DNA from: Chloroflexota bacterium | GTDB lineage: Bacteria; Chloroflexota; Dehalococcoidia; Tepidiformales; Tepidiformaceae | Length of the DNA: 47,394 bases | Assembly (NCBI GenBank): GCA_016191435.1 | Contig: JACPOQ010000076.1 | Span: 1 to 47,394 of the forward strand | Reading direction: 5' to 3' | In this document: piece by piece, positions 6,057 to 46,130 of the stretch | How the letters are laid out: every line of letters begins with the position of its first letter | Numbering within the stretch: position 1 is the stretch's first letter | Program-made: the position numbers and the translations under genes | The notes under the pieces: model-generated | Told to the model about the DNA's origin: nothing | The model's input: the letters and a program-made list of their open reading frames with translations, nothing else | The model's database searches: none

Positions 6057-6204
6057 GGGGTGTGGGGTATGGGCGTGTGGGAGTGGGAACAGCGATTCGG
6101 GCCTGACTCACCGATAGCGGCCCACGCGAGTTCGGGCGTACTCGGGCACGCGATCCGGATCGGAACCACACCACGCCCACACGCCCACACTGCCACACGC
6201 CGCC
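6057..6204. repeat. Octamer tandem array, inverted pair
   Basis: Left arm 6057-6087 is built of units like GGGGTGTG and GCGTGTGG with an 8-bp period. Right arm 6166-6204 carries the complementary units (CCACGCCC, ACACGCCC). About 80 bp of ordinary sequence lies between. The pair sits between the SHOCT gene and the cupin gene and could fold as a long imperfect stem. Confidence 0.7.
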
Positions 6205-6284
6205 GCAGCGCCCTGGCGCCAGTCGCGATGCCGCGCCCGCGCCCGTATGCTTTCGCTGCCCACCCGCGGGCTGGAGGAACGGCG

Positions 6285-6659
6285 ATGAAAGTGACGCGCA
6301 TCTACACCGGCGATGACAACGAGTCGCACTTCGAAGACCTGGACGTGCCCTTGAAGGAGGGCGTCTACGGCAGTATCTCGCGCTTCGTCCCGGTGAAGGG
6401 CGTCGCCTTTCGCGAAACACCGCTCGGCGCCGAACTGGACTTCCACAACGCCCCGCAGCGCCAGTTCGTCATCACCCTCACCGGCATCGCCGAGGTGGAG
6501 TGCGGCGACGGTTCGAAGCGCCGCCTGGGCGCGGGCGACATCCTCCTCGCGGACGACGTCGCCGGGCACGGGCACATCACGCGCGAAATCGAAGGCCCCC
6601 GCAGGAGCATCTTCCTCCCGCTCCCGGAGGAATTCGACCTCGCGCCGTGGCGGGCATAG
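6285..6659 (+). CDS. Cupin-domain protein
   Basis: A 124-residue single-domain protein with a cupin beta-barrel pattern: HNAPQRQFVITLTG (about 53-66) as cupin motif 1 and GAGDILLADDVAGHGH (about 82-97) as motif 2. The first motif lacks the usual HxH-E pair but keeps a histidine, an arginine and a glutamine. Metal binding is therefore uncertain. Start ATG 6285 follows GGAGGA. Family members include small dioxygenases, isomerases and binding proteins; the specific role is unknown. Confidence 0.85.
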   Translation: MKVTRIYTGDDNESHFEDLDVPLKEGVYGSISRFVPVKGVAFRETPLGAELDFHNAPQRQFVITLTGIAEVECGDGSKRRLGAGDILLADDVAGHGHITREIEGPRRSIFLPLPEEFDLAPWRA

Positions 6660-6670
6660 GCGCCCGTGGG

Positions 6671-7453
6671 CTACCGCGACTCCACTGGAAACCAGCAGCG
6701 ATAGTCGGTGACGTGGCGGAAGCCGAGCTCCTTATAGAGGGAGTAGCCGGCGCGGGTCGCCTGGAGCGCGCTCGCGGTGCAGCCGGCGGCGCGCCCTTCT
6801 TCGGCGGCGTGCCGCGTCATCGCCGCGCCGTACCCGCGCCGGCGAAAGCTGTGCAGCGTGCTCACGTTCGAAACGCCCGCGATGCCGTGGCTGCAGAGCA
6901 GCGTTGCGGTCGCGACCGCGCGCCCGCCGCAGTACCCGAGGTAGTGCGTCAGCCCCGGCTGCGCGAGCAGTGCCGGGTCGGCGAAGACGGCGAACAGCTC
7001 GCGCGGCGTGCTGAAGCCGCTCGCCATGATTTCGATGAAGCGAGCGGCGGGTTCGCCCGCTTCGACGCGCTCGATGCGGAGCGGCGAGGACTCTTCCTCC
7101 GCGGCCGCGACGAGGGGCGCGAGCAGCATCCCCGGCAGATCCGGCCCCGCCTCCAGCCCCGAGGCGTTGGCGAAGGCGCCCGCCACGCCGCTCGCTGCCA
7201 CCACGCACCACGGCAGCCCAAGGTCGCCGAAGAAGGCCGAGGCGCGGTCCAGCAGCAGCTCCGGGTCGGCCGGGCGGGAGAAGACGAACAGGCGGTTGAA
7301 CTCGGCCCGGTCGACGCCCGTGGCCACGGCGGTGGCGCCCTCCGATTCGAACACCGCCCCGCCTGCGACCGTCCGCCCGATGACGCGGTAGGACTCAGCG
7401 AAGTTTTCGTGCATCCGCGTGATCATCGGGTCGGGCGGTTCGCTGCCGCGCAT
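6671..7453 (-). CDS. GNAT-family N-acetyltransferase
   Basis: The 260-residue protein ends in a GNAT acetyl-CoA-binding domain (about residues 125-260). Motif A is seen in VSNVSTLHSFRRRGYGAAMTRH (the R-x-x-G-x-G/A pyrophosphate loop) and motif B in AGYSLYKELGFR. The N-terminal about 120 residues form a degenerate second GNAT-like half. GNAT enzymes transfer an acetyl group to amines of small molecules or proteins; the substrate is unknown. The start at MRGSEP (7453) is chosen because the preceding open frame runs through the promoter region of the divergent gene at 7542. Confidence 0.85.
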   Translation of the reverse strand: MRGSEPPDPMITRMHENFAESYRVIGRTVAGGAVFESEGATAVATGVDRAEFNRLFVFSRPADPELLLDRASAFFGDLGLPWCVVAASGVAGAFANASGLEAGPDLPGMLLAPLVAAAEEESSPLRIERVEAGEPAARFIEIMASGFSTPRELFAVFADPALLAQPGLTHYLGYCGGRAVATATLLCSHGIAGVSNVSTLHSFRRRGYGAAMTRHAAEEGRAAGCTASALQATRAGYSLYKELGFRHVTDYRCWFPVESR

Positions 7454-7541
7454 GGCCGTACCCTTTCGCCCCGAGTGTAGCGGACGGCGCCGGCCGCGCC
7501 CGCTGGTATAGTCCGGCGCACGAGCGCAGGAGAGACGACGC

Positions 7542-7949: not shown

Positions 7950-8056
7950 GGATTCACGATTTGCGATTCACGATTGAAGTCACAGTCGTGTCCACATCCG
8001 TTCGGCCGGCGCCACGGAACCCCTATCGTGAATCGGCAATCATGAATCGTGAATCT
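7950..8056. repeat. Heptamer array of GATTCAC type, inverted pair between convergent genes
   Basis: Left arm 7950-7979 has 7-bp units gattcac, gatttgc, gattcac, gattgaa and begins at the stop codon of the PPOX gene. Right arm 8026-8056 has complementary units cgtgaat, cggcaat, catgaat, cgtgaat and abuts the stop codon of the convergent DUF192 gene. About 45 bp separate them. Confidence 0.7.
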
Positions 8057-8525: not shown

Positions 8526-8581
8526 GGCGCTCCTCCGCAGCACGGGGGAAGGGTAACAGCAAGCCGGGAACGAGGGATGAA

Positions 8582-8616
8582 AGTTCCGAGGGCCGAGTCC
8601 CGAGTTCCGAGTGGGG
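8582..8616. repeat. Heptamer array (GTTCCGA type)
   Basis: Units gttccga, gggccga, gtcccga, gttccga, gtgggga with a 7-bp period. It lies upstream of the DUF192 start and next to copy A of the 210-bp repeat. The 620-bp gene-free gap 8526-9145 holds nothing but this array, two copies of the 210-bp repeat, an octamer array and a second heptamer array. Confidence 0.65.
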
Positions 8617-8643
8617 ACAACCCGCCTTGGGGCCGCGCCGATC

Positions 8644-8796
8644 GCGGCCGACCACCCTCCGGTAGTCGTGGCCGTCTGGGGCCACGGGTCATGGACCCCA
8701 TGTTCCGGGACCAGTGACCGGCGTTCGAACGCGGGCACACGTGGATCAGCGGGCGAGCGCAAAGCGCGAGACCGCGGCGACCGCAGCCCACGACCG
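8644..8796 (+). repeat. Interspersed 210-bp repeat, copy A (3' truncated)
   Basis: Nearly identical to copies B and C from the accacc...ggtagtcgtggccgtctgg block onward. It stops at about 8796, losing the last about 60 bp present in the other copies. It contains several self-complementary blocks (GTGGCC..GGCCAC, GGGTC..GACCC, GCGTTCGAACGC). No conserved reading frame with a start and ribosome site is apparent. An octamer array begins at the truncation point. Confidence 0.8.
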
Positions 8797-8848
8797 TGAC
8801 GGCGTGACGGCGTGACGGCGTAGGGGAGTGTGGGAGTGTGGGCGCGTG
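8797..8848. repeat. Octamer array between repeat copies A and B
   Basis: Tandem 8-bp units ggcgtgac, ggcgtgac, ggcgtagg, ggagtgtg, ggagtgtg, ggcgcgtg occupy the junction between the two copies of the 210-bp repeat. Confidence 0.75.
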
Positions 8849-8873
8849 CAAAACACCGCCGGGCGCCGAAACC

Positions 8874-9086
8874 GCGGCCCACCACCCCCTCGGTAGTCGT
8901 GGCCGTCTGGGGCCACGGGTCATGGACCCCATGTTCCGGGACCAGTGACCGGCGTTCGAACGCGGGCACACGTGGATCAGCGGGCGAGCGCACCGCGCGA
9001 GACCGCGGCGACCGCAGCCCGCGACCGCCACGAGCGCGAGTCCCATTTTCATCCCTGGTTGTGGCGCCGCGCCATCACCGACTCGG
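8874..9086 (+). repeat. Interspersed 210-bp repeat, copy B
   Basis: Full-length copy in the same orientation as A and C. Palindromic blocks are as in copy A. The 3' part (about 9027-9086) contains gttgtggcgccgcgccatca and ends in a CTCGG that merges into a heptamer array. No coding signal is apparent. Confidence 0.85.
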
Positions 9087-9126
9087 AACTCAGCACTCAC
9101 CACTCACCACTCAGCACCCAGCACCT
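9080..9126. repeat. Heptamer array (CTCGGAA / AGCACTC type)
   Basis: Units ctcggaa, ctcagca, ctcacca, ctcacca, ctcagca, cccagca with a 7-bp period. It fills the space between repeat copy B and the LigD-type gene that starts at 9146, so it overlaps that gene's promoter or leader region. Confidence 0.75.
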
Positions 9127-9145
9127 TCCATGCTACTTTGTCCCC

Positions 9146-10162
9146 ATGCCGAAAGACGCCATCGAGGTGGAGGTGAGCGGGCGGGTCGTGCCCGTGACGA
9201 ACCCGGGCAAGGTGTTCTTCCCCGTGTCCGGCTATACCAAGCTCGATATCGTGAACTACTACCTGGCCGTCGGCGAAGGCGCGCTGCGCGGCGTCTACCG
9301 CCGCCCGACTGTCCTCAAGCGCTTCGTCAACGGCGCCGACCAGGAGCCTTTCTTCCAGAAGCGCGCCCCCACACCGCGGCCCGAATGGGTCGAAACCGCG
9401 CACGTGACCTTCCCCAGCGGCCGCAGCGCCGACCTCGCGGCGCCCGACGAGATCGCCGACCTGGTCTGGATGGCGAACCTCGGCTGCCTGGATCTCAACC
9501 CCTGGCCCGTGCGTGCGGACGACGTCGACCATCCGGACGAGCTGCGCGTCGACCTCGATCCCACGCCGCAGGCCGATTTCGCGATGGTGAAGCTGGTCGC
9601 CAAGGCCGTGCGCGAAGTGCTCGACGACTTCGGCTACGTGGGCTACCCGAAGACCTCTGGCTCGCGCGGCATCCACGTGAACGTGCGGCTGGAGCCACGC
9701 TGGGGCTTCACCGATGTGCGCCGCTGCGCCCTCGCACTCGGCCGCGAAGTCGAACGGCGCGTGCCGGCCATCGCGACGACGAAGTGGTGGAAAGAAGAGC
9801 GCCACGGCGTGTTCATCGATTACAACCAGAACGCCCGCGACCGTACCGTGGCGTCCGCGTACTCGATCCGCCCTACCCCGGACGCGCGTGTCTCCTGCCC
9901 GATCACCTGGGACGAGCTGGCAACCGTCGAGCTCGCCGACTTCACCATCGTCACCGTGCCGGCGCGCTACGCCGCCATCGGCGACCCTTCGGCCGCGATC
10001 GACGAGAAAGCGCACTCGCTCGAACCGCTGCTGGAGCTGGTGGCCAGGCAAGCGGCTGCCGGCCTCGGCGAAGCCCCGCTCCCGCCACATTACCCCAAGG
10101 CCGAAGGGGAACCCCGCCGCGTCCAGCCCAGCAAGCGGAAGAAGGATGGGCTGAGGGACTGA
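9146..10162 (+). CDS. LigD-type DNA polymerase/primase domain protein (stand-alone)
   Basis: A 338-residue protein matching the polymerase (PolDom, archaeo-eukaryotic primase fold) of bacterial LigD, which fills and extends ends in non-homologous end joining. The catalytic acids are Asp136 and Asp138 in LRVDLDP and Asp225 in VFIDYNQN. The SGSRGIHV motif (171-178) binds the nucleotide and NQNARDRTVASAYSIRP is also diagnostic. No ligase or phosphoesterase domain is attached, and no ku or ligase gene lies in the window. The ATG at 9146 begins the conserved N-terminus; the frame is open far upstream but through repeats. The last codons and stop fall inside an octamer array (10148-10176). Confidence 0.9.
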   Translation: MPKDAIEVEVSGRVVPVTNPGKVFFPVSGYTKLDIVNYYLAVGEGALRGVYRRPTVLKRFVNGADQEPFFQKRAPTPRPEWVETAHVTFPSGRSADLAAPDEIADLVWMANLGCLDLNPWPVRADDVDHPDELRVDLDPTPQADFAMVKLVAKAVREVLDDFGYVGYPKTSGSRGIHVNVRLEPRWGFTDVRRCALALGREVERRVPAIATTKWWKEERHGVFIDYNQNARDRTVASAYSIRPTPDARVSCPITWDELATVELADFTIVTVPARYAAIGDPSAAIDEKAHSLEPLLELVARQAAAGLGEAPLPPHYPKAEGEPRRVQPSKRKKDGLRD

Positions 10163-10176
10163 GCGGCTGAGGGGCG
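10148..10176. repeat. Octamer array (GGGCTGAG type) over a stop codon
   Basis: Units gggctgag, ggactgag, cggctgag, gggcggcg. The array covers the last four codons and the TGA of the LigD-type gene, so the C-terminal residues and stop are written by the repeat. The same unit type recurs at 44461-44488. Confidence 0.55.
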
Positions 10177-10218
10177 GCGGCCGCTTCGCGGGGCCGCGCG
10201 CTGTGCCATGATGTTCCC

Positions 10219-15152: not shown

Positions 15153-16514
15153 CTACGCTATCGAGCCCCGTGCGAACCCGCCCTCTTCTTGCACCCGCGC
15201 CCATTCCGCGTCCGGGTCATCGCTGCCGAGGTGGCCGGCGGCGGTGCGTCGCGACTGGATTCCCGCCTCCACGAGCGATCGCTCGTCGGCCACCTGCCGC
15301 GAACGGTCGATGGGCAGCACCGGCCCCCAGTGCGCGACCGCCCGCAGCCCCTCGATATCGAGGCCCGCGTACTTCGCCAGGAGGCGCAGGATGAGCATCG
15401 CCCGGCGTTCGTACACGGAGGTGCGGATCAGTCGCTTGCGTTCGACCTTCTTCGCGAGCGGGTCCAGCTCGGTGTTGAGCGCGATGCCGCTGAGCCCCTG
15501 CGGGTTGCTGCCGAAGGCCGTCCGCGGCGACTCCCCGAGGTCGTGCAGCGTGCGGTAAATGAGGTCGATGTAGTCCTTGTGGAGCGCCACGCCGCCGCCC
15601 TGGAGCAGGTCCAGCAGGTAGGCCCGCGCCCGCTCCGGCACCTCCCACACGGCGCCCGGCTCGACGGCGATGTCGTCGGCGCCCGTCACGCCTTCGAGCA
15701 CCGCGATCGGGTTCCCCGAAAGCTCCAGGATCTGGCTGAGCTGGCTGTAGGCGCGGTTGAGCTCGCGGGAGGATTCCACGAGCGCGGGGATGTCGCTCGA
15801 ACCCCATGCCTGCTTCGGCTCCCGGACGTTGGGAAAGAGCACGTAGGGGATGAAGCCATACGGGTTCACCTCGTGCCGTTCGCGCTGCTCGCCGCGCCAG
15901 AGCTCGAAGGTATCGGCCGTCCAGTATTCGGTGACCGTCGTCGCGGGGAGGCTGCCGCCCGCGCCAGTGGAGTGGAGGGTCACCACCGGGGCCGCGTCTT
16001 CGACCGAATACTGCGAGGCAACCGCGACGAGCCGCGCCGGGTCATCGGGCACGCGCCACGCGAAGAGGCCCTGCACATCCGGCGCCGTCACCCGCACCAT
16101 CGCCTCGGCGGGGTCCCAGGTGACCTTGTAGGCGGCGTCGCCGAGCACGGCGCAATCGAGCTCGGTCTCGAAATCGAGCTGCGCCAGGAAGTTCGTGGCT
16201 TCGACATCACGCAGCGCACGTTCGGCTGCGCGGGCGCGTTCGCGGCCGGCGCCGGTGTCGCCATCGCGCGCCTCTACCTGGACCGCCAGCCCGCCGAGCA
16301 GGTAGCTCGTGATCTTGTCGGCGAAGGCGCGCGCGTAGTTGAAGGTCAGCCGGCGTTCGCCACGCCGCGCCCGCCCGAGCCACTGTCGCCCCTCGTAGAA
16401 CTCCAGATTCTCGCGGTAGCGCCGCAGCCGCTCCTCGTCCATGCGCCGCAGCCGCACGGGCAACGGCAGCTCGTCGCGCAGTTCGCGCCGCCGTACCGGG
16501 AACCTCACAGGCAT
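15153..16514 (-). CDS. Phage portal protein (SPP1-type), isolated
   Basis: A 453-residue protein resembling tailed-phage portals. The N-terminal YRENLEFYEGRQWLGRARRGE then NYARAFADKITSYLLGG is the clip/wing pattern; VKVTWDP-like and GFIPYVLFPN blocks follow, then a long helical stem/crown region with SSRELNRAYSQLSQILELSGNP. Portals form the dodecameric DNA gate of the capsid. Terminase, protease and capsid genes, which normally flank it, are absent; the neighbours are a CheX-like gene and dCTP deaminase. The reading frame is intact and GC-rich like the host. Start ATG 16514 chosen as the first Met of the conserved N-terminus. Confidence 0.85.
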   Translation of the reverse strand: MPVRFPVRRRELRDELPLPVRLRRMDEERLRRYRENLEFYEGRQWLGRARRGERRLTFNYARAFADKITSYLLGGLAVQVEARDGDTGAGRERARAAERALRDVEATNFLAQLDFETELDCAVLGDAAYKVTWDPAEAMVRVTAPDVQGLFAWRVPDDPARLVAVASQYSVEDAAPVVTLHSTGAGGSLPATTVTEYWTADTFELWRGEQRERHEVNPYGFIPYVLFPNVREPKQAWGSSDIPALVESSRELNRAYSQLSQILELSGNPIAVLEGVTGADDIAVEPGAVWEVPERARAYLLDLLQGGGVALHKDYIDLIYRTLHDLGESPRTAFGSNPQGLSGIALNTELDPLAKKVERKRLIRTSVYERRAMLILRLLAKYAGLDIEGLRAVAHWGPVLPIDRSRQVADERSLVEAGIQSRRTAAGHLGSDDPDAEWARVQEEGGFARGSIA

Positions 16515-16575
16515 CGTTGTCACGCCATCACCTCGCGCCGGGATATCCGCCACGGTGCCGGGCCGGGGGTGGAGG

Positions 16576-16658
16576 TGGTAGGGGCGGTTGGCGTAGAGGC
16601 GTAGGGGCGTGACGGCGTAGTGGCGTGTGGGGTGCGGGAGTGTGGGCGTGCCGGAGTG
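16576..16658. repeat. Octamer array between divergent portal and dCTP deaminase genes
   Basis: About ten 8-bp units such as cgtagagg, cgtagggg, cgtgacgg, cgtagtgg, cgtgtggg, gtgtgggc. It occupies most of the divergent promoter region between 16514 and 16748. Confidence 0.75.
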
Positions 16659-16747
16659 GTCGCGGTAGCGTGGCGTCGGTGGTGGCCATAGACTCGGCGT
16701 GTGTTTCGACGCGAAATTCGAGGGCTCGATCGCGAGGTGCGCCAACC

Positions 16748-22478: not shown

Positions 22479-22489
22479 GAGCCGCGGCG

Positions 22490-22576
22490 GGGTGTGGGGG
22501 TGTCGGCGTCTGGGCGTAAGCCTGGGAACGCACGCTTCCACACCCACACACCCACACACCCACACGCCCACACGGC
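22490..22576. repeat. Octamer array, close inverted pair
   Basis: Left arm 22490-22518 (ggtgtggg, ggtgtcgg, cgtctggg) and right arm 22538-22576 (cacaccca repeated three times, then cacgccca) have only about 20 bp between them, so a long hairpin is possible. It lies between msrA and the nitroreductase, ending about 15 bp before the latter's start. Confidence 0.75.
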
Positions 22577-23400: not shown

Positions 23401-24369
23401 GTGAGTAGCCAAACGGCGAGCCAAATCCCCCTCCTGGCGGCGGATCTCCATGTAGTGCCGCGGCTGGAGGTTGGTATCGCACCAAGAACGCGTCCCGCGT
23501 ACGAACTGGTTTTGGACGATGCGTTCGATTGGCTGGATCGGCGGGTGGCCAATTCCATCGAGGCGGTCGTGACGGATCCGCCCTATGGATTGATTGAATT
23601 CAGCGAAGCGGAATTGCGGAAGAAGAAGGATGGCAGTGGCGGAGTGTGGCGGATTCCGCCAGCCTTCGACGGTTGCGAGCGAGCGCCGCTGCCGCGCTTC
23701 ACGGTGTTGCGGGATCGCGATCGCCAGGCGCTGCGCGCATTCTTCGCGCGGTTGTCGCAGTCGCTCATACGGGTGCTCGTGCCGGGAGCGCATGTTTTCA
23801 TCGCGACGAATCCGCTGGTCTCCCACCTCGTGTACGAGCCGTTCATCGCCGCGGGGTTTGAAAAGCGCGGGGAAATTATTCGCCTGGTGCAAACGCTGCG
23901 CGGCGGGGATCGGCCGAAGAACGCGGAGAACGAGTTCGACCTTGTTTCGGTGATGCCTCGGTCCGGTTGGGAACCCTGGGGTCTCTTCCGGAAGCCATGC
24001 CAGGGACGTGTGCAGGATAACCTCAGGGTGTGGCGGACCGGTGGCTTGCGGCGGATATCCGATGCGGAGCCCTTCAGAGACGTCATCTCCGCTCCCGTGG
24101 CGCGCGGCCGCGAACGGGAAATCGCACCTCACCCTTCGTTGAAACCTCAGCGGTTGATGCGCCAATTGGTGCGGGCCTCTTTGCCGTTCGCTGAAGGCAC
24201 GGTGCTCGATCCATTCATGGGCTCCGGCTCCACAATCGCCGCCGCATCGGCGCTCGGGATACAAAGCATCGGGATAGAGTGCAACCCGGAGTTCTTCGCA
24301 CTCGCCGTCGCGGCCATCCCGGAACTGGCCGGGCTCGATGCCGGTGAGCACGACTCTGCCAGATGGTGA
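23401..24369 (+). CDS. Type II DNA methyltransferase
   Basis: A 322-residue amino-methyltransferase with catalytic motif IV TDPPYG (about 58-63) before the SAM motif I DPFMGSGST (about 275-283), the permuted beta-class order. DPPY favours N6-adenine, though N4-cytosine cannot be excluded. The target recognition region lies between. It is followed by a putative endonuclease gene overlapping by 7 bases. Base composition is clearly less GC-rich than neighbours, a sign of transfer. Start GTG 23401. Confidence 0.88.
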   Translation: MSSQTASQIPLLAADLHVVPRLEVGIAPRTRPAYELVLDDAFDWLDRRVANSIEAVVTDPPYGLIEFSEAELRKKKDGSGGVWRIPPAFDGCERAPLPRFTVLRDRDRQALRAFFARLSQSLIRVLVPGAHVFIATNPLVSHLVYEPFIAAGFEKRGEIIRLVQTLRGGDRPKNAENEFDLVSVMPRSGWEPWGLFRKPCQGRVQDNLRVWRTGGLRRISDAEPFRDVISAPVARGREREIAPHPSLKPQRLMRQLVRASLPFAEGTVLDPFMGSGSTIAAASALGIQSIGIECNPEFFALAVAAIPELAGLDAGEHDSARW

Positions 24370-28546: not shown

Positions 28547-28577
28547 GCTGTGAAAATCGCCCCCGAGCGCGCCACTC

Positions 28578-28789
28578 GCAGCCCACCACCTCCCGGTAGT
28601 CGTGGCCGTCTGGGGCCACGGGTCATGGATCCCAGGTCCCGGGACCAGTGACCGGCGCTCGAATGCGGGCACACGTGGATCAGCGGGCGAGCGCAGCGCG
28701 CGAGACTGCGGCGACTGCAGCCCACAACCGCCACGAGTGTGAGTCCCGTTTTCGTCCCTGGTTGTGGCGCCGCGCCATCACCGACTCGG
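28578..28789 (+). repeat. Interspersed 210-bp repeat, copy C
   Basis: Full-length copy matching copy B over its whole length with scattered substitutions. The block GGTCCCGGGACC is a perfect palindrome here. It again ends in CTCGG and merges with a heptamer array. It is about 20 kb away from copies A and B, same orientation. Confidence 0.85.
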
Positions 28790-28813
28790 AACTCGGAACT
28801 CGGCCCTCGGAAC
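28783..28813. repeat. Heptamer array (CTCGGAA type) abutting a stop codon
   Basis: Units ctcggaa, ctcggaa, ctcggcc, ctcggaa. It joins repeat copy C to the stop codon (28817) of the small phage-type gene. Confidence 0.75.
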
Positions 28814-29044: not shown

Positions 29045-29145
29045 CGCCGTATCGGCGTTGTGGCGTGATGGCGTATCGGCGTAACGGCGGCCATCGGCGA
29101 CGCCGGCACGCCCCTACGCCGGCACGCCGATACGCCCTATGGCGC
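29045..29145. repeat. Octamer array, inverted pair overlapping a stop codon
   Basis: Left arm 29045-29090 (cgtatcgg, cgttgtgg, cgtgatgg, cgtatcgg, cgtaacgg) and right arm 29098-29145 (ccggcacg, cccctacg, ccggcacg, ccgatacg) are complementary with about 8 bp between. The right arm covers the stop codon of the LamG gene (29137-29139). Confidence 0.75.
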
Positions 29146-31821: not shown

Positions 31822-31892
31822 CGGCCCCTCCTTATGGCTCCGAGCGAAACAGGCGCGGCGGCGAAGGGGGAAGGGGAGGGTGGCAGGATTCG

Positions 31893-31985
31893 TAACGACG
31901 TATGGGCGTAACGGAGTAACGGCGTAGGGCCCCACGCCGACACGCCGACACGCCGACACGCCGGCACGCCCCTACGCCGTTACAC
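31893..31985. repeat. Octamer array, inverted pair with a perfect 14-bp stem
   Basis: Left arm 31893-31929 (gtatgggc, gtaacgga, gtaacggc, gtaggg) and right arm 31930-31985 (acgccgac three times, then acgccggc, acgcccct, acgccgtt). GTAACGGCGTAGGG at 31916-31929 pairs perfectly with 31970-31983. It lies between divergent genes, ending 8 bp before the SDR start codon. Confidence 0.8.
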
Positions 31986-32754: not shown

Positions 32755-33037
32755 TTGCGTAAGGCGTACCGGCGTAGGGGCGTGACGGCGTCGAGGCGTT
32801 CGCTTCGTTGCGGCGGTCGCGCGGGCCGCGCCGAACTCGACGGGCAAGAGGGAGCCTAGCTAGGTCCAGGTGGACGGATGCATCCAGCATTTCGATGCCC
32901 ACCAGCTTTCCACGCTCGTCGATGTCGAAGATGAGCCGGAAATCCGGCCCATCGAACGTCTCGTTGCGGAACGGCCCGGGGGCGTCGGCCAGGCCGATGT
33001 ACAGTGCATCGACCTCATAGTCGTACTGGATTTTCAT
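32687..33037 (-). CDS. DUF2283 protein with repeat-derived tail
   Basis: Residues 1-60 are a DUF2283 domain (MKIQYDYEVDALYIGLAD, then GPDFRLIFDIDERGKLVGIEMLDAS), a small family of unknown function. The natural end should be near residue 70, but the frame continues through the octamer array at 32755-32800 (translated as ...STPSRPYAGTPYATT) and stops at 32687 inside the convergent SDR gene. The tail is probably not original. About 23 in-frame residues upstream of the Met also look protein-like (GKRWLTAAEVEEIVTDAV), so the gene may be a rearranged remnant. Confidence 0.6.
   Translation of the reverse strand: MKIQYDYEVDALYIGLADAPGPFRNETFDGPDFRLIFDIDERGKLVGIEMLDASVHLDLARLPLARRVRRGPRDRRNEANASTPSRPYAGTPYATTAGAPRSRGPGRGVLRAGYRC
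32755..32800. repeat. Octamer array after the SDR stop
   Basis: Units such as gcgtaagg, cgtaccgg, cgtagggg, cgtgacgg, cgtcgagg start at the SDR stop codon and run into the DUF2283 frame. Confidence 0.7.
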
Positions 33038-33113
33038 TGATCGCGTAACCGCATCTGTGACGATCTCCTCCACTTCTGCAGCGGTCAACCACCGTTTGCC
33101 GAGACGACATCCG

Positions 33114-33156
33114 GCACGCCCATACGCCCTTACTCCCATACGCCCACACTTCCTCG
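33114..33156. repeat. Octamer array upstream of DUF2283
   Basis: Units cacgccca, tacgccct, tactccca, tacgccca are complementary to the array at 32755-32800, so DUF2283 is bracketed by an inverted pair of arrays. The array ends just before the HTH gene's stop codon at 33163. Confidence 0.7.
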
Positions 33157-33734: not shown

Positions 33735-35132
33735 ATGCCGATCTCGCTCGACCCCGCCTGGCAGACCGCCGATGCCGTGCGCGCGAAACGCGTCAGCGCC
33801 CGCGAAGTCACCCAGGCCGCCCTCGACCGCATCGCTCAGCTCAACCCGAGGCTGAACGCGTTCGTCCATCTCTCGCCCGAAACCGCGCTGCGCGACGCCG
33901 ATGCCATCGATGCCGCCATCGCCCGCGGCGAGGATCCAGGCCCGCTGGCCGGCGTCCCGATCGGCGTGAAGGACCTGGAGCCCGTGGGCGGCATGCCCTT
34001 CACCGATGGCTCGCGCGCCTTCGCCGGGCGCATCGCGCGGGAAGACTCGGTGCAGGTCGCGCGGCTGAAGGCCGCCGGCGCCGTCGTGGTCGGCAAGACC
34101 AACACGCCCGAGTTTGGCTACAAGGGCTTCACCGAGAACGAGCTCTTCGGCCCCACCCGCAACCCCTGGGACGTGGCGAAGACGCCCGGCGGCTCCAGTG
34201 GCGGCAGCGCCGCGGCCGTGGCCGCGGGTATGGTCGCGCTCTGCACCGGCAGCGATGGCGGCGGGTCCATCCGCATCCCGGCCGCGTTCTGCGGGTGCTA
34301 CGGCATCAAGCCCAGCGCGGGGCGAATCCCCATGGCGGGCGAGAACTACCCGCACTGGGGCACCCACAGCACCAAAGGCCCGCTCAGCCGCACGGTGCGC
34401 GATTCGGCGCGCTACCTCGATGCCGCCGCCGGCCCGCACCCCAACGACCTCAACTCGCTCGATGCCGCGCCCGGCGATTACGAAGCCGCGGTCCTCGCCC
34501 CGCCGCCGAAGCTGCGCCGCATCGGCTGGAGCGCCGACCTCGGGTACGCCGCGGTCGACCCCGAGGTGGCGGCCGTCGCGCGCGAGGCTGCCGTGGCGTT
34601 CGCGGGCGCGCTTGGGGCGGAACTCGTCGAAGCAGCCCCCGGCTTCGATGACCCGATGCCCGCCTGGTTCGCACTCGGTGTCCCCGGCGACGCCCACTTC
34701 GTGGACACCATGACAGACGAGCAGCGCGGTCGGCTGGAGCACGGCTTCGTCGCCTTCGCGAAGCTCGGCCACGATATCTCCGGCGTGCAGATGGCGGCTG
34801 CCGCCCAGGCCCGCCACCACCTCAACATGCGGATCAACGCCTGCCTGGACGACTACTCCCTGCTGCTCACGCCAACCTGCGCGGACGTGCCCTTCATCGC
34901 CGAAGGCCCACCCCCGAACAGCATCGGCGGGAGGCCCGTGGGCCCCGCGGGCTTCATCCCCTTTACCTACCCGTTCAACCTCACCGGGCACCCGGCGGCT
35001 TCCCTCCCGGCCGGGCTCGCGCGCGGGTTGCCCGTGGGCCTCCAGGTGGTCGGCCCCCGCTACGGCGACGCGCTCGTGCTCGCCGTCAGCGCCGCATTCG
35101 AAGCAGCCCGCCCGTGGGCGTGGCCAGCGTAG
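33735..35132 (+). CDS. Amidase (amidase-signature family)
   Basis: A 465-residue amidase-signature hydrolase. The Ser-cisSer-Lys triad is Lys79 (PIGVKDLE), the cis-serine in [16 protein letters not shown] (about 154) and the nucleophile Ser178 in [12 protein letters not shown]. It hydrolyses amide bonds of small molecules. It lacks the partners of GatCAB, so a free amidase is more likely than the tRNA amidotransferase subunit. The stop codon is followed immediately by a heptamer array. Confidence 0.9.
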
Positions 35133-35181
35133 GGAGTGCTGAGTCCTGAGTGCTGAGTGCTGAGTGCTGAGTGCTGAGTGC
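35133..35181. repeat. Heptamer array (GAGTGCT type) after the amidase stop
   Basis: About seven units: gagtgct, gagtcct, gagtgct four times, gagtgcg. It begins at the stop codon and is the most regular array of the window. Confidence 0.85.
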
Positions 35182-35242
35182 GCCGTCAGTTGTTGGCTGG
35201 CCGTTTCCCCATGCGTTGTCGGCTCGGGGTCCGGCCAGGAGC

Positions 35243-35281
35243 GGGAGCTACTAGAGCTAGCAGCTAACAGCTAGCAGCTAC
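35243..35281. repeat. Heptamer array (AGCTAAC type) at the tmk 3' end
   Basis: Units gagctac, tagagct, agcagct, aacagct, agcagct (7-bp period) overlap the tmk stop codon at 35278. It is inverted relative to the array at 35904, so tmk is bracketed by a complementary pair. Confidence 0.75.
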
Positions 35282-35880
35282 CTGACCAGCGGCTCGATCC
35301 ACGCCCACGCGTCCGCTTCGATCTCGGCCGGCGAATGCGTCGCATCGAGTGTGAGCCACGTGCCGGGTGCGGAGCCGGTGGCCTGCGCGAGGTAGCCTTT
35401 GCGCACCCGCCGGTGAAACTCGAGCGTTTCGAGGCCGGTGCGGATCGCCTCCGCCTCGCCGTGCTTGCGCGCGAGCCCGAGCGCCGGCTCGATATCGAGG
35501 TACACCGTCACGGCCGGCTGCAGGCCGCCCGTCGCCAGCCGGTTCGCCGCCTCCAGCGAACGCAAGTCCAGCCCGCGGCCGTAGCCCTGGTAGGCGAACG
35601 TGCTGGCCGCAAAGCGGTCGCAGATGACCACGGCGCCGCGGAGCAGCGCCGGCCGTACGACTTCGTGGACCAGCTGCGCACGCGCCACGAGGAACGCGAA
35701 CGTCTCCGCCCAGGGCGTGAGCGGCTCGTGCAGCAGCGCCCGCACCAGCTCGCCCGCGGCCGTACCGCCCGGCTCGCGCGTCAGCACCGCCTCGTGGCCG
35801 GCCGCGGTGACGCGCGCGCCGAGCGCCGCCGCCAGCGTGCTCTTGCCCGCGCCTTCGCCACCTTCGAGCACAACGAACAT
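35278..35880 (-). CDS. tmk: dTMP kinase
   Basis: A 200-residue thymidylate kinase, phosphorylating dTMP to dTDP. The P-loop is GGEGAGKST (7-15), with REPGGT (35-40) and the substrate-binding CDRFAASTFAYQGYGRGL (about 88-105) following; the LID region lies near residue 145. The two-domain dCTP deaminase at 16.7 kb feeds the same pathway. There is no holB next to it. The gene is bracketed by an inverted pair of AGCT-type heptamer arrays. Confidence 0.93.
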   Translation of the reverse strand: MFVVLEGGEGAGKSTLAAALGARVTAAGHEAVLTREPGGTAAGELVRALLHEPLTPWAETFAFLVARAQLVHEVVRPALLRGAVVICDRFAASTFAYQGYGRGLDLRSLEAANRLATGGLQPAVTVYLDIEPALGLARKHGEAEAIRTGLETLEFHRRVRKGYLAQATGSAPGTWLTLDATHSPAEIEADAWAWIEPLVR

Positions 35881-38197: not shown

Positions 38198-38788
38198 ATG
38201 ACTGTGCTGAGTGATGTCCGAGACCGAGTCCGCAAGGACCTGCGCGATACCGATGCGGCCGCCTACCGCTGGAGCGACGCCCAGCTCGAACGCCACATCG
38301 ACCACGCCCTCACGGAGGTGAGCCTCGCGCTCCCGCAGGAGAAGACGGCCACACTCGCCACCACGAGCGGCAGCCGCGAGCTCTCGCTGGCGGCACTCGA
38401 TGTGATCGAGGTCGAGCGCGTGGAATACCCGCTGGGAAGCTACCCGCCCGAGTACGTCGGCTTCGCTACCTGGGCGACCTCGCTCATGCTCCAGGTCGAT
38501 GCGCTGCCGGTGGGTGCGCCCGCGAAGCTCTACTTCACCGCGCGCCACACCCTCGATGGCACGGGCACGTCGCTTTCGCCCCAACAGGTGGACCTGGTGG
38601 CGATGGGCGCCGGCGCGTACGCCGCGCTCGAACAGGCCATCTACGCCGCCGACCGCATTACCACCGGCGCGGATGCCGCCGGCGGCTACGCCGACTGGGG
38701 CCGTGCCCGCCTCACGGCGTTTCAGCAGCTCCTGCTCCAATACGGCCGCCGCAACCGCGTGCGCGGCAACCGGTTGTATAGCTATTAG
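38198..38788 (+). CDS. Phage head-tail adaptor-like protein
   Basis: A 196-residue protein with a helical N-terminus (VRDRVRKDLRDTDAAAYRWSD, then LERHIDHALTEVSLALP), a beta middle (TATLATTSGSRELSL, VIEVERVEYPLG) and a helical C-terminus. I recognise the pattern from adaptor/connector proteins encoded near portal genes in phages of environmental bacteria. It is isolated here, about 22 kb from the portal. The stop TAG is supplied by the heptamer AGCTATTAG, so the last residues (LYSY) come from the array. Start ATG 38198 begins the conserved part. Confidence 0.65.
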   Translation: MTVLSDVRDRVRKDLRDTDAAAYRWSDAQLERHIDHALTEVSLALPQEKTATLATTSGSRELSLAALDVIEVERVEYPLGSYPPEYVGFATWATSLMLQVDALPVGAPAKLYFTARHTLDGTGTSLSPQQVDLVAMGAGAYAALEQAIYAADRITTGADAAGGYADWGRARLTAFQQLLLQYGRRNRVRGNRLYSY

Positions 38789-38952
38789 CTATTAGCGGCC
38801 AGCTGCTAGCCGCTAACGATTCCTGTCCGTTTCTTTCATCAAGTTTGACGAAGATGAGGCGAAGATACTCTCTCGATACCGGTACCGTTGCATGGACTCG
38901 CTAAAAGCTAACAGCTAAGAGCTAGTAGTTATTAGCTCTTAGCCAACAGCTA
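38778..38952. repeat. Heptamer arrays (AGCTATT type), pair between convergent genes
   Basis: Left arm 38778-38818: agctatt, agctatt, agcggcc, agctgct, agccgct. Right arm 38899-38952: agctaac, agctaag, agctagt, agttatt, agctctt, agccaac, agctacc. Both arms overlap stop codons (38786-38788 and 38950-38952). About 80 bp of AT-richer sequence lies between. Confidence 0.8.
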
Positions 38953-41299: not shown

Positions 41300-42286
41300 T
41301 CAAACGGCACCACGCTCGGCCATGGTGATTCCCTTGGCGACGCCTTCGTCGCGGAGGATCGCCAGGAACTCCGAGAGCGGCATGAGGTCATCGGACAGTG
41401 AGAAATGCATATCCAACTCCGCACCCCCGAACACGCGGGCGAAACCACGGATCCGGAGCGCATATGCGCGTTCGAACAGCTTTTCCTTGAGGAGCGCCTC
41501 GGCGCGCCGGGCCGAAAGAACGAACCAATCGGCCTGAGCAATGCTCGCATACGTGCTTACCGCTGCAGGGTCTTGCTGAGCGAGCAGGTGCCGTACGAGC
41601 GTGTCCTCGATGTTTCGCTTTCCTGGGAGCCTCTGCGACTTTGAGAGAAGGGCGACTGCCTCGACGACCTCGGACGGGAGGCTTTGACCGACGACCTCGG
41701 CGCCGAGCCCCGCCACTCCAACGATGATGAACAGGTAAGGCAACGATTCACGATGCTGCTTTTCCAGCGCAGAGTGAATCTTATAGGTCGCGAGCGCGAA
41801 CGTGTCTTCTGGTACCAACCCCACCAACTCTTGGGCGCGCCGGAACTGCGATCCGAAGAACTTGATATTGATTCGAAAGATGGGGCGGCCGTTGCCGTTC
41901 AGAAGGCGGTAGTCAGTATCGGATCGTGATTCACGTAGGTCGATGAGATCGAACTCCCGCCCTACCATCTCCGCGCGGTAACGATCCTCAAAAGCCCTTT
42001 CGGCCGAAGCGCCAAGTAGCAGCTGGCCGAGGATCAGCGTTGCTTTCCGGACGTCGCCGGGTTGGATGTTCGATTGCGACAGTCCAAGCGTCTCCAACAC
42101 AGCATCTTGCGCTGCCAGTACCCTGGCAACCGACTGCCTGTTCGTTCCAACTGTCGCTGACGCCTGCGGCAGGGGCACACCGCTATGGACAAGGCGTTTC
42201 GCTTGAAGGAGATGTAGAGGCTTAGGCCACGGGGAATTACCGAACGCCGCGCCCATCAGATCGCATAGCTGCGCTTCCGAAATCAT
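41300..42286 (-). CDS. Type II restriction endonuclease
   Basis: A 328-residue protein whose gene overlaps the methyltransferase stop by 4 bases (ATGA). Residues 30-60 hold a helix-turn-helix-like segment (VPLPQASATVGTNRQSVARVL). A likely PD-(D/E)xK nuclease core lies at about 105-140 (GREFDLIDLRES, then RPIFRINIKFFG). I do not recognise a specific isoschizomer family. The gene is less GC-rich than its surroundings. Confidence 0.7.
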   Translation of the reverse strand: MISEAQLCDLMGAAFGNSPWPKPLHLLQAKRLVHSGVPLPQASATVGTNRQSVARVLAAQDAVLETLGLSQSNIQPGDVRKATLILGQLLLGASAERAFEDRYRAEMVGREFDLIDLRESRSDTDYRLLNGNGRPIFRINIKFFGSQFRRAQELVGLVPEDTFALATYKIHSALEKQHRESLPYLFIIVGVAGLGAEVVGQSLPSEVVEAVALLSKSQRLPGKRNIEDTLVRHLLAQQDPAAVSTYASIAQADWFVLSARRAEALLKEKLFERAYALRIRGFARVFGGAELDMHFSLSDDLMPLSEFLAILRDEGVAKGITMAERGAV

Positions 42287-43242
42287 TCGACTGGCACGAG
42301 TCCAGATCCGTGAGCCGGGAACCTAACTGCCGAGGCAGCGAGATATGCACGCTCTTTCTCTATCGACAACCACTGGCGCCCGTGAGTTTCTGCAACCCAT
42401 CCTGTCATGTTGCTCCCTGCGAACGGATCAAGGACGAGGTCGCCGATATCTGTTGTGAGCTTGATCGCAAACTCTGGGACTGCAGCGGGAAAGCGAGCAG
42501 GATGAACCTTCAGGCCAAGTCGGCGACATTCCTGTATGTACGCGGAGTTACTTTCGTTGTTTCCTCGTTCAATGAGGTTGGAAGGGGTGGCGCCGCCGTT
42601 GTCCTTTTGGAATTTATCAGTGATGTTATGGCCGCTGGGCCGCAACTTTGGTCGATATCCGCGCTCGAGAATGCGCCGCATGTCAACGCTGTACGGCACG
42701 AGCACTTTCCGGTTATTCGCCTTGGGCCAAGCCGATGGAGAGAGCCACCAAAAGTACTCCACAGAATCCTTCACTCTAATGCGGCGCACGTTGACCCATT
42801 CCGCAGGTGCCGGCAATTTCGCGGGATTGTACCAGAACAATTCCTGAGCTAAATGAAACTTAAGGCGATCACATAATGCAATGAGAAGCCTAAAGTGATA
42901 AAGCGATCTCGTGGGAGTACCACTGTTGTAGCTACCACCGATATTGAGGAAGAAGCTACCATCGGGCTTGAGCACTCTCCGTATTTGTTCCGCGAAAGGG
43001 AGAAACCAGGCCACGTAGTCATCTTTCGACTGGTTTCCATATTCTTTTTGGAAATGAAGGGCATAAGGTGGCGAGGTGACGACCGCCTGTACTGACGCGG
43101 AGGGCAATTCGTCCAGCAACGCGAGTGAGTCCGCTACAAACGCAGAACCAAGCGCGGTGCTGTAGAGCGGCGCGTGCTCGATGAAACGTTCGCCAGGATG
43201 GAGGGGCCGCTCGTCCGGGGCAGGGGACGGATTCAGGGTCAA
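42283..43242 (-). CDS. Type II DNA methyltransferase, N4-cytosine type
   Basis: A 319-residue methyltransferase with TSPPYALHFQKEYGN (motif IV, SPPY favours N4-cytosine) before DPFAGSNMTG (motif I), a permuted beta-class order. The recognition segment is between. It modifies the host's own sites against the endonuclease encoded immediately downstream. Lower GC than flanks marks the pair as acquired. The upstream flank is the 3' end of leuB. Confidence 0.9.
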   Translation of the reverse strand: MTLNPSPAPDERPLHPGERFIEHAPLYSTALGSAFVADSLALLDELPSASVQAVVTSPPYALHFQKEYGNQSKDDYVAWFLPFAEQIRRVLKPDGSFFLNIGGSYNSGTPTRSLYHFRLLIALCDRLKFHLAQELFWYNPAKLPAPAEWVNVRRIRVKDSVEYFWWLSPSAWPKANNRKVLVPYSVDMRRILERGYRPKLRPSGHNITDKFQKDNGGATPSNLIERGNNESNSAYIQECRRLGLKVHPARFPAAVPEFAIKLTTDIGDLVLDPFAGSNMTGWVAETHGRQWLSIEKERAYLAASAVRFPAHGSGLVPVE

Positions 43243-43360
43243 CTCGCGCTACCCTCACAAATCGCGACTGGCGGAACTGTAGCAGGTCGGCCGGAGAGGC
43301 GGAAGCATGGGGAGCGTCAACTGCGGTCGCTTCCTCCCTTCGGCGACTTCTCCGGCGGCC

Positions 43361-44449: not shown

Positions 44450-44460
44450 GGAGAGCAGGG

Positions 44461-44525
44461 TAAGGGGCTGAGGGGCTGAGGGGCTAGGGACGGCGTGTGG
44501 GCGCGTCGGCGTGTCGGCGTGCGAC
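44461..44525. repeat. Octamer arrays upstream of leuB (two types)
   Basis: aggggctg three times (44461-44488), then cgtgtggg, cgcgtcgg, cgtgtcgg, cgtgcgac (44490-44525). They lie 12 bp upstream of the leuB start codon, in its leader region. Confidence 0.7.
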
Positions 44526-44526
44526 C

Positions 44527-44578
44527 CTCACTCGGCCCTCGGAACTCGGCCCTCGGAACTACTCGCCCCTCAGCACTG
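44527..44578. repeat. Heptamer array (CTCGGAA type) at a stop codon
   Basis: Units ctcggcc, ctcggaa, ctcggcc, ctcggaa, ctactcg, cccctca, gcactgg. It overlaps the stop codon (44570) of the YwqG-like gene. Confidence 0.75.
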
Positions 44579-45247
44579 GTACAGGAACGCCGCCCCGCCC
44601 GGCCCGCACTCCTCCGCGCACAGGAACAGGTACCCGCGGCCGCCTTCGCCGAAGCCAAGGTATTTCTCGGCGCCGTCCGGCGATGGTTCGAGGCGGTCGG
44701 CGAACTGGGCGGCGAAGATCATCGCGCCGCCACAGGCCGGGCACGCCGGGCGGCGCGACGACCGTAGCCACGCCGGCACGCCGCCAACCTTCGTCCCCTC
44801 CCAGAGCTGCTTGCGCTGCGAAACGTCGAGGTCCTCGGGCGTCCAGTGTACGCGGGGCTCGATCGCGCGTTCGAGCCGCACCGCGTAATCCGGGTAGGTG
44901 GCGCCGGGGCCGGGGGCGGGCGAGTCGCTGTAGGCCTGCAGCACCACGCGGTTGGCGCCCGCATCGGGCAGGTCGTTTTCGCAGATCAGCGCCCAGCTCG
45001 AATCGTAGGCGCCCGCGCACATGAAGATGTAGGCCATGCTCCAACGGGCCGAGAGCGGCAATGGCCCATCGATGCGCACCTGCGCGAGGAACGCCATCGG
45101 CATGCGGCACGAGGTGCATGCCGGCGGCTCGATGGGCCCGAACAGCACCGGCGCGCCGCCAATCTTCGTCACCGGCTGGCGGATTGGCCGCGGCGAATGG
45201 CGCACCTGCGCCACGAACAGGTCGACGACATCGGGCGCGCGTGCCAT
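44570..45247 (-). CDS. YwqG/DUF1963-like protein
   Basis: A 225-residue protein made of two similar halves. Each has a Cys-x2-Cys pair (ACTSCRMPMAFLAQV at about 44-58 and ACPACGGAMIFAAQF at about 168-182), plausible zinc ribbons, followed by beta strands ending in YIFMCAGAY or YLFLCAEECG. This is the arrangement of DUF1963/YwqG-like proteins, of unknown function. Start 45247 (MARAPD). It is divergent from the cyclic-nucleotide-binding gene. Confidence 0.7.
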   Translation of the reverse strand: MARAPDVVDLFVAQVRHSPRPIRQPVTKIGGAPVLFGPIEPPACTSCRMPMAFLAQVRIDGPLPLSARWSMAYIFMCAGAYDSSWALICENDLPDAGANRVVLQAYSDSPAPGPGATYPDYAVRLERAIEPRVHWTPEDLDVSQRKQLWEGTKVGGVPAWLRSSRRPACPACGGAMIFAAQFADRLEPSPDGAEKYLGFGEGGRGYLFLCAEECGPGGAAFLYQC

Positions 45248-45424
45248 GCCTCAGCATGAGCATCAGCCGCACGCCAATGCAATTGGGAACAACCACGACG
45301 GCAGCGAAAGCGCCGCACTGTTGCCCGCGTTACAGAAGCGCCACAGCAGCCCTTGTACGGCTCGCGCCCGCATGCCTACAATCCCGCCGACGACCGGGCG
45401 ACCCGGCGCCCAAGGAGCTTCGCT

Positions 45425-45844
45425 ATGAGCGCCACGCTGGATTCACTCGCAAAAGTCCCGCTCTTCCAGGACCTCCCGAAGAAGTCGCTCGAGCGCATCG
45501 AGAAGTTTGCCCGTCCCCGCAACTTCCAGGCCGGCGACACGATTTTCAAGGAAGGCGAAGAGGGCGTCGGCTTCTTCCTGATCACCGATGGCAGCGTGAA
45601 TGTCGAGCGCAACGGCCAGAACATCGCCACCATCGGCGCCGGCGGGTTCTTCGGCGAGATGGCGCTGCTCGATAATCACCGGCGTAGCGCGACCGTAAAG
45701 GCCGCTGCCCCGACGGCGTGCCTCGCCCTGATGCGCTCGGACTTCCTCGCCGAAATGCGCAACAACCCGGACCTCGCGCTCGAAATGCTGACCGTCATGA
45801 GCCGCCGGGTGCGCGAACTGGACGAGCGTCTCTCGCACTCGTAG
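45425..45844 (+). CDS. Cyclic nucleotide-binding domain protein
   Basis: A 139-residue single CNB domain. Residues 1-135 show FQDLPKKSLERIEKFARPRNFQAGDTIFKEGE, VERNGQNIATIGAGGFFGEMALLDNHRRSATVKA (phosphate-binding cassette with G-E-x-A-L and R-S-A-T) and a C-terminal helix. There is no DNA-binding or catalytic domain, so it may act as a regulatory subunit or scaffold. Retention of the cassette Glu and Arg suggests it can bind cAMP or a relative. Confidence 0.88.
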   Translation: MSATLDSLAKVPLFQDLPKKSLERIEKFARPRNFQAGDTIFKEGEEGVGFFLITDGSVNVERNGQNIATIGAGGFFGEMALLDNHRRSATVKAAAPTACLALMRSDFLAEMRNNPDLALEMLTVMSRRVRELDERLSHS

Positions 45845-46130
45845 GGGCGTTGGGCGTTGGGCGTTGGCCAGAATGGCCGCGGCTCGCGCCAAACGCGAAT
45901 CAGAGCCGCGCACAGTAGTAAGCGTCCGGGGATACAGGCCACCCAAAGGCTCCGCGTCAGCCGTGGAACGGGCGGCTCCACAATGGGGCGTTGGCGTTGG
46001 GGCGTTGGCCGGCAACAGGATTGTGCCCCCAGCGCAGGCACGTGAATGATGGCCCGTAATCGCGCGGGTCTCGGCTCAGGGTGCCAGCTCGTTCGGCCAA
46101 CGCCCAATGCCCAACGCCCAACGCCCGCCC
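45845..46130. repeat. Heptamer arrays (GTTGGGC type), inverted set
   Basis: Three arrays: 45845-45880 (gttgggc, gttgggc, gttggcc, beginning at the stop codon), 45983-46011 (gcgttgg, cgttggg, gcgttgg) and 46091-46130 (ccaacgc, ccaatgc, ccaacgc, ccaacgc, complementary to the first two). The 346-bp gap 45845-46190 holds only these and unremarkable sequence. Confidence 0.75.

Follow-up and report, generated by a model that had tools for sequence, protein, structure and literature searches.

Bacterial heptamer repeats were recognised long ago, and there is no agreed mechanism for them. In Xanthomonas, GGGAATC repeats form convergent pairs (70 and 75 cases in two Xanthomonas) that lie nearer to the 5' neighbouring open reading frame (ORF), whatever its direction; the GGGGA(T/C)T repeats of Nostoc are placed likewise, and the repeats were read as G-quadruplexes (Rehm 2015, PMC4692102). 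The P6b stem of the Nostoc/Calothrix trnL intron is built of heptamers, either TDNGATT (Class I) or NNTGAGT (Class II), and the class has been switched repeatedly (PMC4476775). TAACTGA repeats were treated by MacGregor 2015 (PMC4679880), citing Mrazek 2007 on heptamers, polymerase footprint and slippage, and repetitive extragenic palindromes (REPs) tagged with GTAG, cyanobacterial ones included, by Di Nocera 2013 (PMC3733652). We examined the 7- and 8-bp tandem arrays of a 47,394 bp stretch (68% GC; hereafter, the window) from a Chloroflexota bacterium, whose 3.8-Mb draft genome, 90% complete, is labelled G000. For its 3-isopropylmalate dehydrogenase, 120 of 292 relatives were listed; those bearing an organism name are six 'Dehalococcoidia bacterium', 'Chloroflexi bacterium', 'Tepidiforma sp.', 'Tepidiformaceae bacterium' and one Hyphomicrobiales, which makes a Dehalococcoidia host likely, perhaps one close to Tepidiformales. 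Convergent heptamer pairs are already known for G-rich words (PMC4692102); new here is that arrays of one family form inverted pairs of fixed polarity, nearly always with the G-rich word 5' on either strand. Among the entries listed by a literature search over titles and abstract openings, there was no report of such arrays in Chloroflexota, no 8-bp GGCGTnnn family and no whole-module word differences at intergenic slots.

Arrays of the window and the polarity of their pairs

The original prediction had counted at least 26 short arrays at periods 7 and 8, and this is borne out: at a score of at least 9 the window held 14 period-7 and 17 period-8 arrays (31 in all), against means of 1.25 and 0.92 (maxima 3 and 4) in 60 dinucleotide shuffles. 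At a score of at least 12 there were 9 and 8 arrays, compared with 0-1 at periods 4-6 and 9-12; the shuffle means were then 0.08 and 0.13, with a maximum of 1. In a scan of periods 5-13, none other than 7 and 8 was in excess, and the multiples 14 and 16 were raised along with them, so that the predicted excess over shuffled sequence is present and the neighbouring periods are flat. All the predicted families were recovered; in our grouping they are GAGTnnn (GAGTGCT, and GAGTTCC = CTCGGAA), GATTnnn, AGCTnnn, GGGCGTT-like, GGCGTnnn and GGGCTGAG-like. Their description as intergenic holds roughly: 9 of the 17 strong arrays were mostly non-coding where a crude gene caller assigned 86% of the window to coding sequence and 14% not, and several overlapped called ORF ends, i.e., stop codons. 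GAGTGCT words were found in other sequence records as well, one of them a chromosome whose record calls it complete (Calothrix sp. PCC 7716), and the arrays are therefore no artefact of one draft assembly.

What went unremarked in the earlier account was the inverted pairing and its polarity. For GAGT words we used at least 119 stretches from named genomes, chosen for five GAGTSCT units on either strand. Neighbouring GAGTNCT arrays no more than 400 bp apart (182 arrays) were ordered '+-' 28 times and '-+' never, with 2 '++' and 2 '--'; with the bare core GAGT and a distance of up to 250 bp the same loci, from many phyla, gave 51 '+-', 1 '-+', 23 '++' and 25 '--'. Within G000 the bare-core counts over 250 bp were 13, 0, 4 and 4 for GGCGT and 4, 0, 6 and 2 for GAGT, in the same order; most of the G000 stretches were picked near known arrays, which biases array densities and not polarities. 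Core searches of the window itself returned four '+-' and one '++' pair of GGnGTnnn, one '+-' pair of GATTnnn and no '-+' pair; the AGCTATT (38779/38900) and GGGCGTT (45845/46094) pairs follow the same order, judged by eye. When stringent inverted pairs were collected without naming any word, G exceeded C in the 5' arm of 63 of 65 (binomial 1e-16), and non-tandem inverted repeats in the same sequences showed no polarity bias (688:678, 412:415, 888:905). An inverted pair is identical on both strands, and its order thus cannot come from one direction of replication or transcription; gene orientation was ruled out as the source, since by crude gene calls the pairs occur in tandem, convergent and divergent spacers alike.

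Arrays of G001, a genome of the same genus, often flank a palindrome, GGCAACCCC...GGGGTTGCC, and the words to its left and right may differ; the exact palindrome occurs at 6 sites in G001 and at none in 24 other genomes. Of the G001 arrays with a nearby centre, 47 of 52 stand in the order that belongs to their word (30 arrays lacking such a centre were left out); each word's sense had been fixed once those same stretches had been inspected. A universal "G-rich" rule was rejected: AGTTCCC, a word of G001, is rich in C and still has a consistent order, which argues that polarity belongs to the word and not to G-content alone. Several G001 stretches (L039, L041, L226-L229) have spacers composed of several heptamer words, often around the same palindrome.

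Folded as single strands, five window modules gave z scores of +0.4 to -5.2, and a G001 module with a perfect 31-bp stem, its variant unit in register, gave -10.3; 7 of 8 sequences tested, one being a REP-like palindrome, folded better than shuffles.

Word structure and turnover between close strains

Each word comprises a constant core and a variable trimer (GGCGT+3, GAGT+3), and the words form a genome-wide vocabulary rather than local seeds. Over 66 GGCGTnnn arrays (290 units) the core letters were kept at 0.99, 0.97, 0.78, 0.97 and 0.89, and the commonest trimer letters at 0.69, 0.53 and 0.48; the GAGTnnn core was kept at 0.92-0.96 (289 arrays and 1,888 units from the at least 119 loci). 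Arrays were counted when their units matched the core on average at 3.2/5 (GGCGT) or 3/4 (GAGT) letters. Neutral drift after slippage would spread changes across all columns. Four GGCGTnnn units in tandem gave 74 overlapping matches in G000 (reversed-pattern control, 0) and 47 in G017, from another genus of the family, where the trimers are mostly RRA; there were none in the other 39 relatives searched, G001 included. Four GAGTGCT units were present in 5 of 294 genomes of the class, i.e., G000, G001, G002 and two from other families. Period 7 was common in G001 and also occurred in G002 and G017, and no period-7 or -8 array with a score of at least 12 was seen in 20-40 kb samples of G007, G010, G013, G014 and G018 or in a 17-kb sample of G008. 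The 80 named hosts among the at least 119 GAGTSCT stretches include Cyanobacteria, Chlorobiaceae, Chloroflexi, Beta- and Gammaproteobacteria, Acidobacteria, Planctomycetes, Actinobacteria and others. Viral contigs (IMG/VR) contained 9 stretches with four GAGTSCT units and 15 with GGCGTR-type arrays of five.

Close strains with GAGTGCT modules were compared in Calothrix sp. PCC 7716, Dulcicalothrix desertica PCC 7102 and Calothrix sp. NIES-4105; the first segment of PCC 7716 and PCC 7102 aligned over 64,051 bp at 95.1%. Six segments of these two strains contained 49 array clusters, from which 8 without resolvable flanks and 6 non-foldback clusters (4 slots) were dropped; the remaining 35 represent 23 slots, scored as shared or discordant by our judgement. 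Both strains had modules at 12 slots (at slot a1, A3004/B2786, with different words; at slot a5, A18597/B17039, the left arm alone is common to both, and nearby), and 11 slots were discordant. In place of the module, the other strain had 15 bp or less at 3 discordant slots, a GTAG-type palindrome (such as GTAGAGACGTTACATGTAACGTCTCTAC, or of the GTAGAGACG type) at 4, repeat-like DNA by our reading at 2, another heptamer word at 1 and unrelated DNA at 1. The modules were two-armed at 9 of the 11 slots, two of them by our reading. At one slot, between flanks 97-100% identical, the two strains have different words, GAGTTCT and GATTTTA, and at one slot three relatives carry three different hairpins. 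A 73-bp pair stands in PCC 7716 where PCC 7102 and NIES-4105 both read TCCA; this is the gain of a complete pair without target duplication, and at most other discordant slots gain and loss are indistinguishable. One spacer compared over 12 Nostocales loci held GAGTGCT pairs at 2, a palindrome at 1, no array at 5 and, by our reading, pairs of the GAAGTAT- (2), CAGGAGT- (1) and GGGATTA-type (1).

Modules retained by both strains had changed too. They differ in unit number, and in the first segment the loop was inverted in two of three shared modules (inner score 94 inverted vs 24 direct in one; 13/14 loop bases inverted and 2/14 direct in the second). An 8-bp insert appears as a mirror image in the two arms, and in 4 of 5 cases each arm has the same number of copies of it. 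The 8-bp word TGCGCTCG was seen within GAGTGCT arms, mirrored in both, in segments of NIES-4105 and PCC 7102; one module can thus combine 7- and 8-bp words.

Table 1. Tandem arrays of the window (+ and -, orientation of the word; z, folding score of the pair)
Feature	Position	Strand	Basis and remarks
8-bp array GGnGTnnn, left arm of foldback pair	6064..6087	+	core regex, sequence
8-bp array CACGCCCA, right arm	6170..6198	-	period scan, core regex
7-bp GATTnnn array, left arm	7951..7978	+	sequence, core regex
7-bp array GTGAATC, right arm	8025..8055	-	pair folds z -5.2 as single strand
7-bp GAGTnnn array (GAGTTCC/GAGTCCC)	8586..8615	+	period scan, core regex
8-bp array GGCGTGAC to GGAGTGTG	8795..8848	+	
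7-bp array ACTCGGA/ACTCAGC/ACTCACC	9081..9125	-	opposite to 8586-8615; 470 bp apart, another array between
8-bp array GGGCTGAG-like	10145..10175	+	
8-bp GGCGTnnn array, two runs	16590..16660	+	
8-bp array, left arm	22489..22520	+	paired with 22539-22574; loop ~20 bp; z -2.5
8-bp array CACACCCA, right arm	22539..22574	-	
7-bp array ACTCGGA	28784..28810	-	weak left partner GAGTGTGAGTCCC at ~28735 by eye; z +0.4
8-bp GGCGTnnn array, left arm	29054..29089	+	
8-bp array, right arm	29097..29136	-	pair with 29054..29089, z -4.3
8-bp array, left arm	31891..31928	+	period scan, core regex
8-bp array CACGCCGA, right arm	31931..31978	-	pair with 31891..31928, z -2.9
8-bp GGCGTnnn array	32763..32802	+	
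8-bp array ACGCCCAT	33113..33149	-	opposite to 32763 array; gap 316
Seven GAGTGCT/GAGTCCT units	35134..35182	+	begin right behind stop of amidase ORF 33735-35132
7-bp AGCTAGC array	35255..35280	.	3' end of thymidylate-kinase-like ORF 35278-35880 (-)
7-bp AGCTATT array, left arm	38779..38815	+	orientation by eye
7-bp array GCTAACA/GCTAAGA, right arm	38900..38943	-	orientation by eye
8-bp array AGGGGCTG	44463..44485	+	
8-bp GGCGTGTC array	44492..44523	+	core regex
7-bp array CTCGGCC/CTCGGAA	44531..44556	-	
7-bp GGGCGTT array, left arm	45845..45867	+	
7-bp array CCAACGC, right arm	46094..46126	-	inverted match 7/7 to 45845 arm; gap 226

Elsewhere in the window, the ORF at 15153-16745, which may be left over from a prophage, matches the SPP1-type phage portal family (PF05133, 1.6e-12), and the ORFs at 23401-24369 and 42283-43242 have lower third-position GC and sub-cutoff matches to adenine-specific DNA methyltransferases.

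Origin of the modules

We consider, with a probability of about one half, that the window arrays are the stems of foldback modules which are written, swapped and lost whole, probably by hairpin template switching, with slippage as a lesser ingredient. Template switching within hairpins during DNA replication would write, swap or remove complete modules, switching between the arms could yield loop inversions and mirrored inserts, and slippage, unit by unit, would alter the copy number. The slot may often retain some hairpin because a hairpin at the border of a gene does no harm or is of use. We infer template switching because of the loop inversions, the mirrored inserts and the lack of target duplication; the dynamics seen in the cyanobacteria probably also act in G000. 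A broader version, which we regard as less likely than not, is that an unnamed process in many phyla writes polar foldbacks from interchangeable core-plus-trimer words, swapped whole, including with REP palindromes, at fixed gene-side slots.

Several results weigh against whole-module template switching. In one of the five window modules, folding did not exceed that of shuffles (z +0.4); many arrays have a weak partner or none at all, and GAGT neighbours in the same orientation are common (the 23 '++' and 25 '--' above). Trimers of paired GGCGT arms matched no better than trimers across loci (0.421 vs 0.532), and those of paired GAGT arms only slightly better (0.613 vs 0.558 over the same at least 119 loci). 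Two of the 11 discordant modules were one-armed, and one shared module had lost its left arm. Masking left the second inverted loop at 18 vs 16, with inverted and direct not separated, and two shared modules of other segments had direct loops (35 vs 10, 23 vs 14), the remaining ones there being uninformative on loop direction. The arms of a module were no more alike (39.6/39.1/38.1/47.8) than arms of different modules (44.5/41.2/44.3/49.3), so that general arm-to-arm copying was rejected; perfect, perhaps young, stems exist beside this failed test, and arm copying is therefore taken as occasional. In Xanthomonas, 83% of the repeats are kept between two species (PMC4692102), and turnover is thus not fast everywhere. 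No close strain of G000 was found, and G000 and G001 are not syntenic at the amidase, so the comparison of window orthologues failed.

Ordinary slippage during replication, starting from local seeds and with 7-8 bp favoured by the polymerase footprint, explains the unit-number differences in shared modules and the homogeneous arrays such as 35134-35182, and in most genomes no long simple repeats are commoner than heptamers (PMC4679880). Slippage was also among the processes named in the original prediction, beside a primer-like activity and a recognised spacing; there, different families in equivalent positions reflected one process acting on different seeds. The Calothrix slot with GAGTTCT or GATTTTA agrees with one process and different families; slippage on different seeds is not supported, since the words are common across loci, genera and phyla, the cores are constant while the trimers vary, and close strains differ mostly by inverted pairs that are complete (9 of the 11 slots scored as discordant). 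Strict pair polarity and the whole-module gain in PCC 7716 further weaken slippage, which we retain as an ingredient and judge unlikely as the sole process. Also unlikely, though we place it ahead of slippage alone, is that a HUH/Y1 transposase, similar to the REP-associated tyrosine transposases (RAYTs), moves the foldbacks as thought for REPs, the G-rich 5' word being its recognition tag. Such a tagged hairpin would be expected to be polar, and the pair gained in PCC 7716 came as a whole unit without target-site duplication; GTAG-type palindromes occupy the same slots as heptamer modules, and Y1 matches number 3 in G000, 7 in G017 and 3 in G002. Yet array-rich G001 (94% complete) has none (PF01797, 0), on which ground RAYT/Y1 was rejected as the maker; G008 has 5 and no score-12 array in its 17-kb sample, loop sequences are mostly unrelated by eye, and the Y1 genes adjoin a 150-bp GTAG repeat, arrays near Y1 genes not having been systematically searched. 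This repeat of ~150 bp, with the GTAG-tagged palindrome GGTAGTCGTGGCC...GGGGCCACG, lies in the window at 8640-8795, 8873-9026 and 28576-28729 and matches at 25 places in G000 but at none in 6 relatives; with some copies adjoining Y1 transposase genes (G000:C27 34.6-35.4 kb and 40.9-41.4 kb), the repeat resembles a REPIN (a REP-built hairpin) with its RAYT. No GTAG-like tag was seen on the arrays themselves. Nor do they have the fixed terminal inverted repeats and target-site duplication of miniature inverted-repeat transposable elements, as arm lengths vary and no duplication accompanied the polarised gain; none was seen by eye in G001.

Selection might instead maintain the modules for what they do. 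If they served as RNA hairpins (mRNA end protection or bidirectional termination) whose sequence is free, then a palindrome in the other strain at 4, and another heptamer pair at 1, of the 11 discordant slots would be understandable, as would the Nostoc P6b stem that tolerates two motif classes (PMC4476775) and the folding of 7 of 8 sequences. Against this, 15 bp or less remained in the other strain at 3 of the 11, pairs also lie between divergent genes, polarity is left unexplained, and the trimers of paired GGCGT arms are not complementary, for which perfect RNA stems were rejected; we find this reading doubtful, and rank it below slippage alone. Ribbon-helix-helix proteins read spaced cores (omega 7 bp, MetJ 8 bp), and arrays maintained as sites for proteins that recognise cores of 4-5 bp at intervals of 7 or 8 bp would account for GGCGTnnn core columns of 0.78-0.99 beside trimer columns of 0.48-0.69. 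This is improbable, lower still in our ranking, as about six words in one genome would require several readers and close strains have different words and hairpin types per slot. Least credible by far are G-quadruplex elements, as suggested for GGGAATC/GGGGATT heptamers: these show the same convergent pairing and 5'-ORF placement (PMC4692102), and some GGnGTnnn arrays may qualify by their G-runs (GG/GGGG), but G-runs are lacking in GAGTGCT, GATTnnn and AGCTnnn, and the GAGT and GATT words pair in the same way.

Other candidates were rejected. A telomerase-like reverse transcriptase had no PF00078 match in G000, G001, G002 or G017, where divergent enzymes or draft gaps could hide one; several words per genome speak, by reasoning only, against one reader of Chi-like sites; and end-filling by non-homologous end joining showed no correlation of Ku with arrays (G017 being outside that search). 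Ku is absent from G000 and present in array-bearing G001 and G002 and also in G013 and G007, whose small samples were without arrays. The window includes an ORF with a LigD primase-polymerase domain at 8945-10162 (PF21686, 4.7e-83); G000, 90% complete, has no Ku match.

Comparison with described repeat systems

Polarity across phyla, together with different whole hairpins per slot in close strains, makes plain slippage an incomplete account, and the hairpin module becomes a concrete, testable object with rates of birth, swap and inversion. The resemblance in form to the cyanobacterial short tandemly repeated repetitive (STRR) heptamers, noticed in the original prediction, extends to the cores, which are the same. 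With STRRs the arrays share degenerate 7-bp tandem units, dispersed and mainly intergenic (by a crude gene caller); they depart from a unit of 7 only, 17 of the 31 window arrays having an 8-bp unit. STRR and TAACTGA repeats are likewise intergenic heptamers, patchy over distant phyla, with indels in 7-nt steps between strains; the TAACTGA repeats differ in being mostly direct (in the main genome 169 sets are direct and one is indirect) and mainly right upstream of start codons (PMC4679880). The heptamers of Rehm 2015 are closer in arrangement, being dispersed 7-bp units, mostly non-coding, in convergent pairs of the same polarity (PMC4692102). Those are G-rich words, whereas the words here are numerous, several of them lack G-runs, some form an 8-bp class, and each joins a core to a variable trimer; their loci are mostly conserved between two Xanthomonas species, whereas we saw whole-module differences between close strains of cyanobacteria.

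The trnL P6b stem is heptamer-built, uses the cores GATT and GAGT, and has one class replacing the other; it is a transcribed stem of a cyanobacterial intron, unlike the free intergenic modules found here in many phyla (PMC4476775). GAGTGCT arrays fit its Class II (window 35134-35182 reads GCTGAGT) and GAGTTCC arrays do not; the array at 7951-7978 has GATT + 3 but with CAC/TGC preceding GATT, which departs from Class I, and the GATTTTA module of Dulcicalothrix PCC 7102 does fit Class I. GTAG-tagged REPs and REPINs are also dispersed foldbacks, and in Calothrix GTAG-type palindromes occupy slots of heptamer modules; they are not tandem and are tied to RAYT genes (PMC3733652). If the process proves general, STRRs, tRNA-Leu intron stems, the G-rich repeats of Xanthomonas and REPs would be united as occupants of the same slots.

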